Assembly: GCF_016918935.1 (NCBI RefSeq)
Contig: NZ_JAFFOB010000015.1
Location: forward strand, 434,001 to 498,000
Direction: 5' to 3'
From: Roseitranquillus sediminis
GTDB taxonomy: Bacteria; Pseudomonadota; Alphaproteobacteria; Rhodobacterales; Rhodobacteraceae
DNA: 64,000 bases
A program made the translations under genes and the position numbers. Shown here one piece after another: positions 47,066-52,619 of the stretch. How positions within the stretch are numbered: position 1 is the stretch's first letter; every line of letters begins with the position of its first letter. The notes beneath the pieces were generated by a model, which was not told the origin of the DNA, searched no databases, and worked only from the letters and a program-made list of their open reading frames with translations.

Positions 47066-47680
47066 ATGGAGCTTGCCGTCACCGACCTTGCCTGCGCCCG
47101 CGGAGGATTGCCGATACTCTCCGGCCTTTCGTTCAGGCTCGGGATCGGACAGCTCATGCTCCTGCGCGGCCCCAACGGGGCGGGCAAGACGACGCTGCTG
47201 CGGACGCTCGCTGGTCTGCAGTCGCCGCTCGCCGGCACGATCTCAGTGCCGCCGGAAGCGGTCGCCTACGCCGCGCACGCCGACGCGGTGAAGCCGACGC
47301 TGACGGTGGACGAGAACCTTGCCTTTTGGGCGGCCATTTACGGCGCGGAAGACATACGGCGGGCACGGGAGGCCTTCGCGCTGGACGACCTGCGCGAACA
47401 GCAGGCGCAGCATCTCTCGGCGGGGCAGAAGCGGCGGCTGGGGCTGGCGCGGCTGCTGCTGGTGGCGCGGCCGGTCTGGGCGCTCGACGAGCCGACGGTG
47501 TCGCTCGACGCGCGGGCGGTGGGTCTCTTCGTGGAGGCGCTGCGGCGGCATCTGGACGCTGGCGGGTCGGCCCTGATCGCGACCCACATCGATCTCGGCA
47601 TCATGGCGCCGGAACTCGACCTGATCCGATATCGCGTCGCACCTTCTCGTGCGATCGCGTTCGACGAGGCGTTTGCGTGA
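47066..47680 (+). CDS. ccmA: Heme exporter ATP-binding protein CcmA
   Basis: ATPase of the CcmABCD complex that releases holo-CcmE during cytochrome c maturation. 204 residues: Walker [19 protein letters not shown], signature [16 protein letters not shown] and Walker [12 protein letters not shown]. Part of ccmABCDG; needed for the heme attachment of SoxX, SoxA and SoxD. Confidence 0.95.
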
Positions 47681-47696
47681 TCCATCCGGCGCATTT

Positions 47697-48353
47697 ATGA
47701 GAGACGTCTTCCTGCGCGACCTGCGTCTCGCGGTGCGGGCCGGCGGCGGCTTCGGCCTCGCGCTGGCGTTCTTCCTAATCGTTACCGTTCTCGTGCCGCT
47801 GGCCGTGGGGCCGCGGGCGGACCTGCTGGCGGCGATCGCGCCGGGCATCCTTTGGGTCGGGGCGCTGCTCTCGTCGCTCCTGTCGCTCGACCGGATCTTC
47901 GCGCTCGACCTTGAGGACGGCTCGCTCGACCTGCTGGCGACGTCTCCGCTGCCGCTCGAGGGGCTGGTCGCGGCCAAGGCGGCGGCGCACTGGGTGACGA
48001 CGGGCCTGCCGCTGACGCTGGCCGCGCCGCTCTTCGGGCTGCTGCTGGGGCTGCCGGGCGAGGGGCAGCCGTGGCTGGTGGCGACGCTGGCGCTCGGCAC
48101 GCCAGCGCTCAGCATGATCGGCGCGTTCGGCGCGGCGCTGACCGTGGGGCTCCGGCGCGGCGGTCTCCTCCTGTCGTTGCTGGTGCTTCCGCTCTACATG
48201 CCGACGCTGATCTTCGGGGCGGAAGCAGTGCGGCGCGGAGCCGAGGGGCTGAGCGTGGCGACGCCGGTGCTGATGCTGGCCGGTATTACAGCCGGGGTCG
48301 TGGCGCTGATCCCCTTCGCGGCGGCGGCGGCGATCCGGGTCAACCTGCGCTGA
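47697..48353 (+). CDS. ccmB: Heme exporter permease CcmB
   Basis: 218-residue membrane protein with six hydrophobic segments. The family block FALDLEDGSLDLLATSPLPL and LPLYMPTLIFGAEAV are clear. The ATG at 47697 (MRDVFLRDLRLAVR) gives the usual short cytoplasmic N-terminus and leaves 16 bases after ccmA. Confidence 0.94.
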   Translation: MRDVFLRDLRLAVRAGGGFGLALAFFLIVTVLVPLAVGPRADLLAAIAPGILWVGALLSSLLSLDRIFALDLEDGSLDLLATSPLPLEGLVAAKAAAHWVTTGLPLTLAAPLFGLLLGLPGEGQPWLVATLALGTPALSMIGAFGAALTVGLRRGGLLLSLLVLPLYMPTLIFGAEAVRRGAEGLSVATPVLMLAGITAGVVALIPFAAAAAIRVNLR

Positions 48354-48408
48354 GCCGTCGCGCCCATGTGTCTTGAGGCGGCCCGTCGAACCGCATAGAG
48401 CATCGCCA

Positions 48409-49140
48409 ATGTCGCTCTGGGAATATGCCAATCCTGCCAAGTTCATGGCCACCAGCCGCCGCCCGATGCAGGCGCTCGGCGCTGCGGCTGCCGTGGCACT
48501 GGCGGTCGGGCTGGTCTGGGGCTTCTTCTTCACGCCCGACGACTACCGGCAGGGCGCGACGGTCAAGATCATCTACCTGCACGTCCCCTCGGCACTGATG
48601 GCGATTAACGGCTGGTTGATGATGCTGGTCGCGTCGCTGATCTGGCTGATCCGCCGTCACCACGTCAGTGCGCTTGCCGCACGCGCGGCGGCGCCCGTGG
48701 GCATGACGATGACGCTGGTCGCGCTCGTGACCGGCGCCGTCTGGGGCAGCCCGATGTGGGGCACCTGGTGGGCGTGGGACCCGCGGCTGACCTCGTTCCT
48801 GATCCTGTTCCTGTTCTACCTCGGCTACATCGCGCTCTGGGAGGCGATCGAGGATCCGGACACGGCCGCCGACCTCACCAGCGTGCTTTGTCTCGTCGGC
48901 TCGGTTTTCGCAGTTCTCTCGCGTTATGCGGTGCTGTTCTGGAACCAGGGCCTGCACCAGGGCGCATCGCTGTCGCTCGACGCCGAGGAGAACGTGGCAG
49001 ATGTGTTCTACTTTCCGCTGCTGGTCTGCATCGCGGGGTTTGTGATGCTGTTCGTGGCGCTGGTGCTGCTCAGGACGCGGACCGAGGTGCGGGCGCGGCG
49101 GCTGCACGTGTTGACCATGCGGAGGCGAATGAGTGCCTGA
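48409..49140 (+). CDS. ccmC: Heme-handling protein CcmC
   Basis: 243-residue membrane protein that presents heme to CcmE. The tryptophan-rich WWD motif is seen as VWGSPMWGTWWAWDPRLTS, with flanking heme-ligand histidines in YLHVPSALM and LHQGASLS. Six membrane segments. ATG at 48409 (MSLWEYANPAKF) matches relatives. ccmD overlaps its stop by 8 bases. Confidence 0.95.
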   Translation: MSLWEYANPAKFMATSRRPMQALGAAAAVALAVGLVWGFFFTPDDYRQGATVKIIYLHVPSALMAINGWLMMLVASLIWLIRRHHVSALAARAAAPVGMTMTLVALVTGAVWGSPMWGTWWAWDPRLTSFLILFLFYLGYIALWEAIEDPDTAADLTSVLCLVGSVFAVLSRYAVLFWNQGLHQGASLSLDAEENVADVFYFPLLVCIAGFVMLFVALVLLRTRTEVRARRLHVLTMRRRMSA

Positions 49141-49282
49141 TCTCGGCAAGTACGCGGCGGAAATCCTGACCGCTTACGGCGCGAGCGCAATATTGCTTGG
49201 CGGGATCGTCTGGGCCAGCGTCGCGCGGGCGGCCCGGCTGCGGCGGCGGCTCGACGAGTTGGAGGGCCGCGGTCGTGGCTAG
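49133..49282 (+). CDS. ccmD: Small cytochrome c maturation subunit CcmD
   Basis: 49-residue protein, starting on GTG at 49133 and overlapping the ccmC stop by 8 bases. One membrane helix (about 9-30, with YGASAILLGGIVWASV) followed by a basic amphipathic tail (RAARLRRRLDELEGRGRG). This is the expected size, topology and place for CcmD, which stabilises CcmC-CcmE interaction. Confidence 0.9.
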   Translation: MPDLGKYAAEILTAYGASAILLGGIVWASVARAARLRRRLDELEGRGRG

Positions 49283-49811
49283 GGTGTCGGCGCTGGTCCT
49301 GGTGCCCCCGGTCGCTTTCCTCGCGCTGGCGGCCGTCTTCTTCGTCGGCATGCAGCGCGACGATCCGGACGCGCTGCCGTCGGCGCGCGAGGGGCAGGTG
49401 GCGCCGGCTATCGCGCTCGAGCCGCTGGGCGAGCGGCCTGTCTTCGACTACGCCGTCCTGCAGGAGCCGGGCGTGAAGCTGGTGAACTACTGGGCGAGCT
49501 GGTGCGCGCCCTGCCGTGCGGAGCACCCGAACCTCGAGCTCCTGGCGAGCGAGGGGGTGCCGATCTACGGCATCAACTACAAGGACGACCCGGAGAACGC
49601 CGAGGCATTCCTTGAGGAGCTTGGCGATCCCTATACCGCGATAGGGGCGGATGCGTCGGGGCGCACAGCGATTGACTGGGGTCTCTATGGAGTTCCGGAA
49701 ACCTACGTGATCGACGGCGAGGGGCGGATCGTGCTGCGCTTCGCCGGCCCTATCACGCAGCGCTCGCTCGAGGGGCAGATCCGCCCGGCCATCGCCAAGG
49801 CATCGCCCTAG
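49275..49811 (+). CDS. ccmG: Thiol:disulfide interchange protein CcmG/DsbE
   Basis: Membrane-anchored periplasmic thioredoxin that reduces apocytochrome cysteines. 178 residues: N-terminal anchor (about 3-24), WASWCAPCRAEHP with redox pair CAPC and the CcmG-specific GVPETYVIDGEGRI. Start on GTG at 49275, overlapping ccmD by 8 bases; GTG is favoured because it gives MARVSALVLVPP before the anchor. Its end overlaps the convergent UdgX gene by 4 bases. Confidence 0.93.
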   Translation: MARVSALVLVPPVAFLALAAVFFVGMQRDDPDALPSAREGQVAPAIALEPLGERPVFDYAVLQEPGVKLVNYWASWCAPCRAEHPNLELLASEGVPIYGINYKDDPENAEAFLEELGDPYTAIGADASGRTAIDWGLYGVPETYVIDGEGRIVLRFAGPITQRSLEGQIRPAIAKASP

Positions 49812-51247
49812 GTCGCGCGCAGCTCCACCAGGTGCGCCTGCGCCGCCGCGAGGTCTTGGCGGAAACGCTCGCGCTCCTGCGCCTTTAGGTCGGCGTCCGG
49901 CAGGCGGAGCAGGTAGGACGGGTGCACCGTCAGGAAGACCGGCACGTTCTCGAACGCCGTCTCTACTGTGCCGCGCCGCTTGAGGATGCCCTTCCCGGTG
50001 CCCGTCAGCGACTCGGCCGCCGTCGCGCCCAGCGCCACGATCAGGAGCGGCTGCACCAGCCGCCGCTCGGCCTCCAGCCACCAGCGGCAGGCCTGGATCT
50101 CGCCCGCGTCGGGTCGTTGGTGGATGCGCCGCTTGCCGCGCGGCGCGAACTTGAAGTGCTTCACGGCATTGGTCACGAAGGTGCGCGAGCGGTCGATCCC
50201 CGCCTCCGCCACGACCTCGTCGAAGAGCCGTCCGGCGGGGCCGACGAAGGGGCGGCCGGCGAGGTCCTCCTGGTCGCCGGGCTGCTCGCCCACGAACATC
50301 ATCTCGGCATCGGTCGAGCCCTCGCCCACGACCACCTGCGTCGCGTTGCGGTAGAGGTCGCAGCGGGTGCAGCCCCTCGCCGCCTCGTGCAGCGCGGCGA
50401 GGGTGTCGGGGGCAGGGGGCTGCTGTTCGGGCATGGGTCGCTCCTTGATGGCGCGGGCGTAGGCGGGCGGCTGCGTAGGCGTGGCTGCGCGCATCGCCAA
50501 TGCCCGCTCTTCGGCCGAGGCGATGAGGTCGGGGATTTCCCGCGCCTCGGGCATGTTCTTCCAGTACTTCTTCGGCATTTCGGCTTGCATCGCCTTCACC
50601 TTCAGGCGCGCAGGGTTGAAGATGTTGCGGAAGTAGGTCGTCCAGAGCGCCTCGGTCGCGTCCTCCGGGATGTCCGGGCGCGGCCGGCCGGGCTCGAAGG
50701 TCAGCTGTCCAGCCTCGAACCGCGCCGAGAGGTCGGGAGTGACGATCAGCCAGTCCATGTCGCCGAAGCGGCGCTGGAAGAACGAGGCGTTCGGCTCCAC
50801 GATGTGGTGCTCAGGCTCGAACCAGGCGGCAAAGGCGCGTCTTGGCGCGCTGGAGTCACCGACTTCGCGAAAGCGCAGGAACGCACGCATCTTGTGGATG
50901 TCGCGGCCGACCGACTTCTCCATCTGTCGCAGCTTTGCCAGCGCCGGGTCGCCGCGATCTTGGATCAGGCCGGGTTGGTCGCGGAGGCGCCAGAGGACGC
51001 CGTAGAGGCGGGCGAAGCGCTCGGGGTCGGAGTGCCAGCAAACACGCTCGGCCAGTTCGACGAAGGCGCGGGGAACAGTGAAACGCCCCGCAGTCGGTGG
51101 CGCCGCCGCCTCGTCGAAGAGGCCGGGCGCCGCGTTGCCGTAGCGCCAGTCGACCGCCTCGGGCGGGACCGCGGCGGAGGCCAGCCCGCGCGCGGCGTCG
51201 CGCCACGCGGCAGCGGTCGCTATCGGAGGAAGGGTGATCGTCCGCAT
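49808..51247 (-). CDS. DUF4130 domain fused to UdgX-type uracil-DNA-binding protein
   Basis: 479 residues in two parts. Residues about 1-265 are a DUF4130 domain, the family that accompanies a specific radical-SAM protein and is of unknown chemistry. Residues about 280-475 are a uracil-DNA glycosylase fold: CTRCDLYRNATQ, motif GEQPGDQEDLAGRPFVGPAGR, TNAVKHFKF and HPSYLLRL. The loop KRRIHQRP (372-379) is the UdgX hallmark; its His376 would correspond to His109 of mycobacterial UdgX, which bonds covalently to DNA at uracil sites. Preceded by the radical-SAM gene 46 bases away on the same strand. Confidence 0.9.
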   Translation of the reverse strand: MRTITLPPIATAAAWRDAARGLASAAVPPEAVDWRYGNAAPGLFDEAAAPPTAGRFTVPRAFVELAERVCWHSDPERFARLYGVLWRLRDQPGLIQDRGDPALAKLRQMEKSVGRDIHKMRAFLRFREVGDSSAPRRAFAAWFEPEHHIVEPNASFFQRRFGDMDWLIVTPDLSARFEAGQLTFEPGRPRPDIPEDATEALWTTYFRNIFNPARLKVKAMQAEMPKKYWKNMPEAREIPDLIASAEERALAMRAATPTQPPAYARAIKERPMPEQQPPAPDTLAALHEAARGCTRCDLYRNATQVVVGEGSTDAEMMFVGEQPGDQEDLAGRPFVGPAGRLFDEVVAEAGIDRSRTFVTNAVKHFKFAPRGKRRIHQRPDAGEIQACRWWLEAERRLVQPLLIVALGATAAESLTGTGKGILKRRGTVETAFENVPVFLTVHPSYLLRLPDADLKAQERERFRQDLAAAQAHLVELRAT

Positions 51248-51293
51248 CTGCAGATCTCGACGCGGCGCGACACGCCGCGGTTCCGCAGATGCG

Positions 51294-52529
51294 TCACAAA
51301 AGCCGCAGCTGCTCCGGCGGCGGCGCGAAGCGCGACCTGAGGTCCGCGCTGTCCGTCAAGCTGCCGGGGGTCCAGCCGCCGAGCGTCACAAACGGCCGCG
51401 CCTGCTTCATGTTGGCGCCCATGCGGACTACGTCGTCGTAGCGCAATGTGCGGAAGCGGCGCGTCGTGAGGATGCGATTGACGGTTTTCGTTCCGAAGCC
51501 CGGCACGCGCAGCAGCGTCTCGCGCTCGGCGCGGTTCACGTCCACCGGAAACCGCGCCCGGTTGGCGAGCGCCCAGGCCAGCTTCGGGTCGATGTCGAGG
51601 TCGAGCATCCCTTCCCGCGCAGGCGCTGTCAGCTCTTCGAGCTCGAAGCCGTAGAAGCGCAGCAGCCAATCGGCTTGATAGAGGCGGTGCTCGCGCTGCA
51701 GCGGCGGCCGTATCAAGGGCAGCGCCGAGGAACTGTCGGGGATGGGGGAGAAGGACGAGTAGTAGACACGCTTCAGTCCATAGGACGAATAAAGCCGCCG
51801 CGCGTTGCCGAGAATCGCCAAGTCGTCCGAGGCGTCGGCACCCACGATCATCTGCGTCGACTGTCCGGCGGGAGCGAAGCGGCGCGGGCGCTTGCCGGTA
51901 TGGCTGCGGTCGCGATGCTCCTCCTTTTTGAGGCGGACCTGCGCCATCGCCTTGCGAATCGTCGCCGGATCCTTTTCCGGCGCATAGCTGCGGACGCTGG
52001 CGTCGGTCGGCAGCTCGATGTTCACGGAGAGTCGGTCGGCGTAGAGGCCTGCCTCCTCGATCAGCTCCGGGCTAGCGTCGGGAATGGTCTTGAGGTGGAT
52101 GTAGCCGCGGAAATTGTGCTCCTCCCGAAGTGTGCGGGCGATGCGCACCATGTCGGCCATCGTCGTGTCGGGTGATCGGATGATGCCGGAGGAGAGGAAC
52201 AGCCCCTCAATGTAGTTTCGCCGGTAGAACTCCAGAGTCAGCGTCACGACCTCGTCGACGCTGAACCGCGCCCGCTCGACGTTCGAGCTCACGCGGTTCA
52301 CGCAGTAGGCGCAGTCGTAGATGCAGAAGTTCGTCATCAGGATCTTGAGCAAGCTGATGCACCGCCCATCGGGAGCATAGGCGTGGCAGATCCCCGACCC
52401 TTCGGTCGAGCCGAGGCCCTTGCCATCACGGCTGTCGCGGCGCGCGGTGCCGCTCGACGCGCAGGAGGCGTCGTATTTGGCGGCATCGCTCAGGATGGCG
52501 AGCTTCTGCTCGAGCGTTTTCTGGCCCAT
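51294..52529 (-). CDS. Putative DNA modification/repair radical SAM protein
   Basis: 411 residues from the ATG at 52529 (an in-frame start at 52538 is possible). The cluster motif CIYDCAYC (69-76) binds 4Fe-4S with SAM, followed by an elongated barrel (YIEGLFLSSGIIRSPDTTMAD, YADRLSVNIELPTD). The C-terminal LLRVPGFGTKTVNRIL is a helix-hairpin-helix DNA-binding motif. This is the rSAM partner that co-occurs with DUF4130 and the UDG domain in many bacteria. Substrate and product are unknown; genome neighbourhood plus HhH imply action on DNA. Confidence 0.9.
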   Translation of the reverse strand: MGQKTLEQKLAILSDAAKYDASCASSGTARRDSRDGKGLGSTEGSGICHAYAPDGRCISLLKILMTNFCIYDCAYCVNRVSSNVERARFSVDEVVTLTLEFYRRNYIEGLFLSSGIIRSPDTTMADMVRIARTLREEHNFRGYIHLKTIPDASPELIEEAGLYADRLSVNIELPTDASVRSYAPEKDPATIRKAMAQVRLKKEEHRDRSHTGKRPRRFAPAGQSTQMIVGADASDDLAILGNARRLYSSYGLKRVYYSSFSPIPDSSSALPLIRPPLQREHRLYQADWLLRFYGFELEELTAPAREGMLDLDIDPKLAWALANRARFPVDVNRAERETLLRVPGFGTKTVNRILTTRRFRTLRYDDVVRMGANMKQARPFVTLGGWTPGSLTDSADLRSRFAPPPEQLRLL

Positions 52530-52619
52530 CCGTTCCACTTATGTTCGCGAATTCGCGGGGGCAAGCACGGCGACGCTACGGCGGGATGACACGGTGTCGC
52601 GCCGAGACCTGCGGCAGGT

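Follow-up and report, generated by a model that had tools for sequence, protein, structure and literature searches.

A radical-SAM and DUF4130-UdgX gene pair behind a LexA-type box in Roseitranquillus sediminis: distribution, conserved features, and likely place in the DNA damage response

NCBIfam has models for each of the three parts of a gene set that is catalogued but uncharacterised: TIGR03916 (a radical S-adenosylmethionine [radical-SAM, or rSAM] family titled "putative DNA modification/repair radical SAM protein"), TIGR03915 (DUF4130), and TIGR03914 (UdgX). The names of the rSAM and DUF4130 families state putative roles in "DNA repair" or "modification/repair" and give no tested reaction. 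We take COG4277 to be a TIGR03916-type protein. In 2013, DUF4130 was linked to radical-SAM and uracil-DNA glycosylase (UDG) genes (PMC3765255), and in 2021, SOS control of a COG1573-COG4277 operon was reported, citing work on Verrucomicrobia and Caulobacter (PMC8565304). We found no report of the reaction of the rSAM-DUF4130 pair in the literature that we searched. Here, we analyze a member of this set from Roseitranquillus sediminis (contig NZ_JAFFOB010000015.1, positions 434,001 to 498,000); we refer to this entire stretch of 64,000 nucleotides (nt) as the window, and the coordinates of its features are window positions. A preliminary description of the window had put the pair forward as the best candidate for an undescribed system. 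This part must be withdrawn: NCBIfam models cover all three parts, and both the link to DUF4130 and SOS control are published. The window module is a member of the catalogued gene set, with its SOS-type operators confirmed.

The two genes are adjacent on the minus strand, as first described: both open reading frames (ORFs) are present, and the models for all three parts score over their curated cut-offs (Table 1). The rSAM gene is upstream, and a gap of 46 nt separates it from the gene for the DUF4130-UdgX fusion. The rSAM gene had been thought to begin at 52538. The ORF does reach this position, but the start codon shifts: because the GTG at 52538 falls within a LexA-type box, we dropped it, and the ATG at 52529 is the likely start. 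The nearest relatives that we found for the module are from Rhodobacteraceae.

LexA-type boxes and the partnership of the two genes

We read 111 loci closely, counting the window copy once. An exact alpha-type LexA box is present in 97 of them, the window's included, and always lies between -100 bp and +20 bp of the rSAM start. Shuffled sequences gave a mean of 0.97 matches (maximum 3), four decoy patterns matched 0 to 3 of the 111 loci, and the box was found in just 16 of 1380 random stretches from the same loci. In the source genome, such a box lies about 107 nt before the matched domain of recA and 48 nt before that of lexA, and there are 90 matches to the box, compared to 43 for the reversed pattern. 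We infer that the window box is an operator bound by LexA. Among the 14 loci without the alpha-type box, four from Pseudomonadota outside the window's class (L096, L103, L104, and L105) carry CTGTN8ACAG, and the upstream region of a Bacillota locus (L113) contains two GAACN4GTTC sites. Because these sites replace the alpha-type box in other lineages, the pair bears different kinds of LexA-type box across lineages (the assignment of box types to lineages is our assumption). A DNA repair context had been suggested for the module, and the boxes ahead of 97 of the 111 rSAM genes bear this out: it is almost certainly a DNA-damage-response module.

To describe the distribution of the pair, we used 150 Pseudomonadota genomes and a larger draw of 396 that repeats many of the same genomes. 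In the 150 genomes, rSAM was over the cut-off in 25 and DUF4130 in 26; the 26th DUF4130 genome (G071) has a 35-position match with one TGA counted. Both families also had matches in the genome of Caulobacter vibrioides, which served as a control. In the 396 genomes, rSAM was over the cut-off in 108 (about a quarter) and DUF4130 in 112. At a looser threshold (E ≤ 0.001), rSAM is matched in 121 of the 396; in the 13 extra genomes, the matches are short (18 to 30 bits), and we did not count these genomes. The two families do go together, as had been stated: all 108 rSAM genomes have DUF4130, and 108 of the 112 DUF4130 genomes have rSAM. DUF4130 is not widespread without rSAM in Pseudomonadota, as only 4 of the 112 genomes show this. 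In 109 of the 111 loci, the DUF4130 gene is downstream of the rSAM gene and on its strand, across an estimated gap of at most 561 nt; of the other two, L116 has DUF4130 as judged by a profile and by the family score, and none was found next to the rSAM gene of L115. With high confidence, then, the rSAM-DUF4130 partnership is near-obligate.

The four DUF4130-only genomes (G071, and G173, G184, and G232, which are of one genus) look like losses of rSAM. Upstream of DUF4130, the three related genomes all retain a LexA-type box, at a distance of no more than about 220 nt. The DUF4130 match does not go past residue 218 in either G184 or G232, and the stretch read from G232 showed no UdgX. G071 retains the box together with UdgX and 40 DUF4130 residues. 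At the level of loci, L156, L158, L159, and L160 give the appearance of a decaying module, with rSAM lost first while the LexA-type box stays, and then the C terminus of DUF4130; what remains of L156 is the box, 40 DUF4130 residues, and UdgX.

The rSAM protein: tail, additional Cys/His set, and fold

Two features of the rSAM protein are new leads: a clamp-type tail and an extra set of cysteine and histidine residues. The published consensus for binding the sliding clamp is QL[S/D]LF, or generally QxxLF (PMC12309361). A broader pattern, Q[LM]xL[FLIW], is present in 103 of the 111 rSAM tails and ends on the final residue in 94; this pattern was picked after the tails had been seen and is wider than the published consensus. 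Shuffled tails matched it 1.3 times on average (maximum 4). Just 3 of 660 background genes matched, and two of these are rSAM genes, leaving 1 of 658. The eight tails outside the pattern have QLGFGF (three tails), QLSLGF, QMALAL, QGSLF, QLSFF, or QLSIF. When nine proteins from Pseudomonadota, Bacteroidota, Bacillota, and one phage-labelled contig were aligned, Q410 was the sole invariant tail column after F383. We also compared 16 divergent tails, which were anchored on the Q by the search pattern, and their invariant Q is not counted as evidence. In a structural model of the rSAM protein, residues 405-411 have a predicted local distance difference test score (pLDDT) under 50, which fits a flexible tail.

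The window's own tail, QLRLL, is a weak instance: Q, L2, and L4 are retained, and the final F is not. Three of the 111 tails, the window's included, have this variant. We consider it likely that the rSAM family docks on the sliding clamp, and we would say so with less assurance of the window's own copy. No mention of the rSAM family together with the sliding clamp was found in the literature that we searched, in which subscription journals were thinly covered.

The additional set, located near the radical-SAM cluster, comprises C51, H52, and C60, which are conserved in 110 of the 111 rSAM sequences, and C26, which is conserved in 109. L038, whose gene is readable in two frames, has a gap at C26, and the L115 relative, from Gemmatirosa, differs at all four positions. 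L115 scores 303 bits, which is below the TIGR03916 cut-off. Because L115 alone is without both the set and DUF4130, conservation suggests that C26, C51, H52, and C60 form a second metal site that is linked to the function of DUF4130. This Gemmatimonadota relative (L115:5989-7281, plus strand) has QLSLW near its C terminus and may represent a sister family.

The motif CIYDCAYC, on which the protein had been called a radical-SAM protein, occupies residues 72-79, and with TIGR03916 over its cut-off this identity stands. The top fold neighbours of the model (numbered from M4) are HydE, LipA, and BioB, with Z of 14-15; for HydE 7o1o, Z is 15.4 (root mean square deviation [rmsd] 2.8, 212 residues aligned). 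Residues 20-36 and 39-61 of the model have pLDDT below 50. No chains of spore photoproduct lyase (SPL) were listed when PDB sequences were searched with the rSAM protein (E ≤ 10 and E ≤ 1), which is still compatible with kinship. The C-terminal helix-hairpin-helix that had been proposed, LLRVPGFGTKTVNRIL, is located in the C-terminal part of the protein; HHH_3 (20.9 bits) and HHH_5 (21.9 bits) match below the Pfam cut-off of 27, and the weak profile matches of the protein include RuvA and ComEA-type chains. From these similarities, the region probably binds DNA.

UdgX and DUF4130 in the fusion protein

The alignment of the KRRIH loop and His376 with mycobacterial UdgX is confirmed: KRRIH falls on KRRIH in 6ajo_A, and in pairwise alignments, the position of His376 is a histidine in 90 of the 91 UdgX domains compared (the window copy included). 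The other hallmarks are conserved in the fusion as well (GEQPG, an R-loop with R and H, and HPS..LLR), and judged by its sequence, the active site of the window UdgX is intact. The preliminary description had the histidine bond covalently to uracil DNA. A cross-linking histidine is correct, but its partner is not uracil itself: in UdgX, H109 becomes bonded to the sugar, at C1', during uracil excision (PMC10359453).

In the 150-genome sample, UdgX was over the cut-off in 20 of the 25 module genomes and missing over the cut-off genome-wide in the other 5 (G023, G046, G074, G082, and G099), and five genomes have UdgX without rSAM (G051, G055, G071, G134, and G145). No UdgX was found in the plasmid module stretches of Spirosoma (Bacteroidota) or of Pusillibacter and Acetoanaerobium (both Bacillota), where the module is rSAM and then DUF4130. 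UdgX is an optional add-on to the rSAM-DUF4130 pair. It had been proposed that the UdgX part marks the site at which the other two proteins act. Because 5 of 25 modules have no UdgX over the cut-off, and none was found beside the three Bacteroidota and Bacillota modules, this role cannot be general.

Within DUF4130, H118, F123, R125, F126, P145, F157, R160, and I168 are conserved in 77 of 78 representatives; we consider H118, R125, R160, R214, and W229 to be candidate functional residues. Two Burkholderiaceae-type genomes contain diverged second DUF4130-UdgX fusions (L161:5590-7437, plus strand, and L162:4918-6552, minus strand), in which His118 was not seen (by eye); their neighbours are xanthine-dehydrogenase-like and MocA-like genes (also named by eye), with no rSAM gene adjacent. 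Separately, the variable linker of DUF4130 includes a conserved [D/G/S]LF (window positions 51113-51127, residues 41-45), which is possibly a second short interaction motif. It resembles half of a clamp motif and has no conserved Q, and we do not claim it as one.

Judged by inspection of its ORFs, a cluster at positions 47066-49811 that converges on the module resembles those for cytochrome c maturation (ccmA/B/C and DsbE-like genes). The final gene of this cluster and the DUF4130-UdgX gene share 4 nt at the end of the latter.

Table 1. Features of the module in the window (aa, amino acids; scores in bits, with curated cut-offs in parentheses)
Feature	Position	Strand	Basis or remark
rSAM gene	51294..52529	-	Likely ATG start; ORF 51294-52538, 414 aa; TIGR03916 "rSAM_link_UDG" 582.9 (343.5); Radical_SAM 35.6 (29.5)
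DUF4130-UdgX fusion gene	49808..51247	-	479 aa; TIGR03915 202.6 (112.25) and TIGR03914 UdgX 329.1 (189.95); UDG Pfam model 110.5 (24.3)
Putative LexA-type operator GAACATAAGTGGAAC	52532..52546	-	2 nt before likely ATG
Candidate extra metal or Fe-S site, C26 ... C51-H52 ... C60	52359..52463	-	Conservation
CxxxCxxC radical-SAM cluster motif (C72, C76, C79)	52302..52325	-	111/111 sequences
Helix-hairpin-helix region of rSAM, probably DNA-binding	51453..51548	-	HHH matches below cut-off
C-terminal QLRLL, degenerate, putative sliding-clamp-binding motif	51297..51311	-	Family pattern
DUF4130 domain (residues 76-234)	50546..51022	-	PF13566 134.6 (27); AlphaFold model of residues 1-262
DUF4130 His118, candidate functional residue	50894..50896	-	H in 77/78 representatives
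UdgX domain (residues about 280-466)	49850..50410	-	TIGR03914; PDB 6ajo_A, E 3.3e-48
KRRIH loop with His376, aligned to UdgX H109	50120..50134	-	Alignment to 6ajo_A

Proposed role and comparison with described systems

The best explanation, which we hold with slightly more belief than doubt, is that the module is a LexA-controlled operon in which a clamp-tethered rSAM protein and DUF4130 process lesions and UdgX caps sites. DNA damage would lead to cleavage of LexA and expression of the operon. The C-terminal tail of the rSAM protein would dock on the replication sliding clamp while its helix-hairpin-helix region grips the DNA, and the [4Fe-4S] cluster would cleave SAM to give a 5'-deoxyadenosyl radical. 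This radical would abstract a hydrogen from a damaged base or sugar that is presented together with DUF4130, and the lesion would be reversed or converted near the fork. The conserved residues C26, C51, H52, and C60 may provide a second metal site that the reaction requires. Where UdgX is fused to DUF4130, it might excise uracil nearby and covalently cap the abasic sugar, guarding against breakage. On whether a lesion is directly converted, rather than a base deliberately modified, our belief in conversion falls just short of an even balance. More tentatively still, TIGR03916 proteins might be clamp-docking radical-SAM enzymes that, with DUF4130 and an auxiliary metal site at C26/C51/H52/C60, repair or convert base lesions at the fork during SOS in growing cells; they would then make up a branch of SOS repair that is based on radicals and distinct from spore photoproduct lyase.

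Several observations count against this explanation. The exact QL[S/D]LF is present in only 38 of the 111 tails, which is why we call clamp docking likely and nothing stronger, and QxxLF is present in 61. The rSAM model is of moderate quality only (pLDDT 72.9). The link between the Cys/His set and DUF4130 depends on one relative, L115, that is without both. In G192 and G200, about 3 kb separates the rSAM and DUF4130 genes. By number, GAACN7GAAC is unremarkable in the window (2 matches versus 1.48 expected), and it is position and conservation that make the window box notable; furthermore, in 9 of the 111 upstream regions, none of the three box types is matched exactly. Finally, because most of the relatives are alphaproteobacterial, the locus counts do not represent independent events.

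We considered whether the pair might instead be mutagenic: a base such as thymine would be modified during SOS and then misread by translesion polymerases, with UdgX handling uracil-like sites. DUF4130 has been described as "a predicted mutagenesis-related enzyme," with radical-SAM and UDG partners "which might modify thymines" (PMC3765255), and LexA-type boxes and a clamp motif would suit a fork-associated mutator equally well. However, no report of a modifying activity was found in the literature searched, UdgX traps sites covalently without release (PMC10359453), and UdgX is missing from 5 of 25 modules. We consider this unlikely. A different proposal concerns DUF4130 itself, which could have a degenerate DHH/DHHA1-type phosphoesterase fold and bind or trim a nucleotide or DNA end made by the rSAM protein; its role would then be to process ends or adducts, not to reverse a base change. 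When the AlphaFold model of residues 1-262 (pLDDT 88.2, predicted template modelling score 0.83) was compared with VIA-align, the matches to residues 1-195 were mostly DHH/DHHA1 proteins: PAP phosphatase 8a8k_A (Z 8.4, rmsd 4.1, 175 aligned) and RecJ 5f54 (Z 7.7, rmsd 3.9, 174 aligned), followed by Cdc45, DhhP, and family II pyrophosphatases, and several DHH proteins were among the weak matches in the viral library. These scores are weak, as models with no clear match typically reach a best Z of 7 to 8, and Foldseek gave no match at E ≤ 0.001 in either of two libraries. In addition, residues 1-262 of the fusion lack a DHH motif, neither DHH nor DHHA1 from Pfam was listed for the fusion at E ≤ 1, and conservation in DUF4130 is strongest at R, H, W, P, F, and E residues. 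Of the DUF4130 profiles compared to PDB sequences, one had no hits and the other had two (E of 0.2 and 1.8). A DHH-like fold for DUF4130 is a lead only, and we judge this proposal improbable.

A module for defence against phages or mobile elements would account for the patchy spread among Pseudomonadota genomes and for occurrence on plasmids (158 of 72,556 plasmid records), but it seems very improbable. Neither protein matched any PADLOC family at E ≤ 0.01, LexA-type boxes are found in lineages that use different box types, and the recurring unit is these two genes alone. Phage-labelled matches were just 10 of 50,697 records; of these, only L117 was checked for its origin, and L116 was read. 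L117 (CAKLQH020000003.1, 86434-99558), which is labelled as an Acinetobacter phage, has the module along with glyS and glyQ and looks like a mislabelled bacterial chromosome. PHROGs gave a weak, generic radical-SAM hit for the rSAM protein (E 0.0033) and none for the fusion, and scans of IMG/VR, which detect close relatives or conserved patterns only, returned 2 relatives when queried with an alignment and none when queried with three single proteins in turn. We rejected an origin in phages or defence.

If SOS-time processing of lesions by a clamp-tethered rSAM protein is correct, then radical chemistry on DNA at the fork would be far wider than spore photoproduct lyase alone implies. The clamp-type tail, the candidate second metal site, and the candidate DUF4130 residues offer direct handles on function.

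Compared to the TIGR03916/TIGR03915/TIGR03914 set, the window module does not differ in kind, as its three parts are all over the curated cut-offs; by its nearest relatives, it is an alphaproteobacterial member. The COG1573-COG4277 operon of Bacteroidetes, also reported from Verrucomicrobia and Alphaproteobacteria, is likewise a two-gene operon with reported LexA-type control (PMC8565304). There, the operon is assigned to uracil-DNA base excision repair, whereas UdgX is dispensable in the module described here, and the word "clamp" is absent from the main text of that paper. UdgX of Mycobacterium smegmatis shares the KRRIH loop, GEQPG, and HPS..LLR with the window domain. Its solved chains are of 205-229 aa, whereas the window domain is one part of a fusion with DUF4130 and is encoded behind an rSAM gene; the word "fused" is absent from PMC10359453. 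Lastly, SplB is a radical-SAM DNA repair enzyme whose genes are SOS-regulated in some groups (PMC3323433, PMC8565304), and we propose radical-SAM chemistry on DNA for the window rSAM protein too. The window protein differs from SplB in having a C-terminal helix-hairpin-helix region and a clamp-type tail, and its nearest folds are those of HydE, LipA, and BioB.

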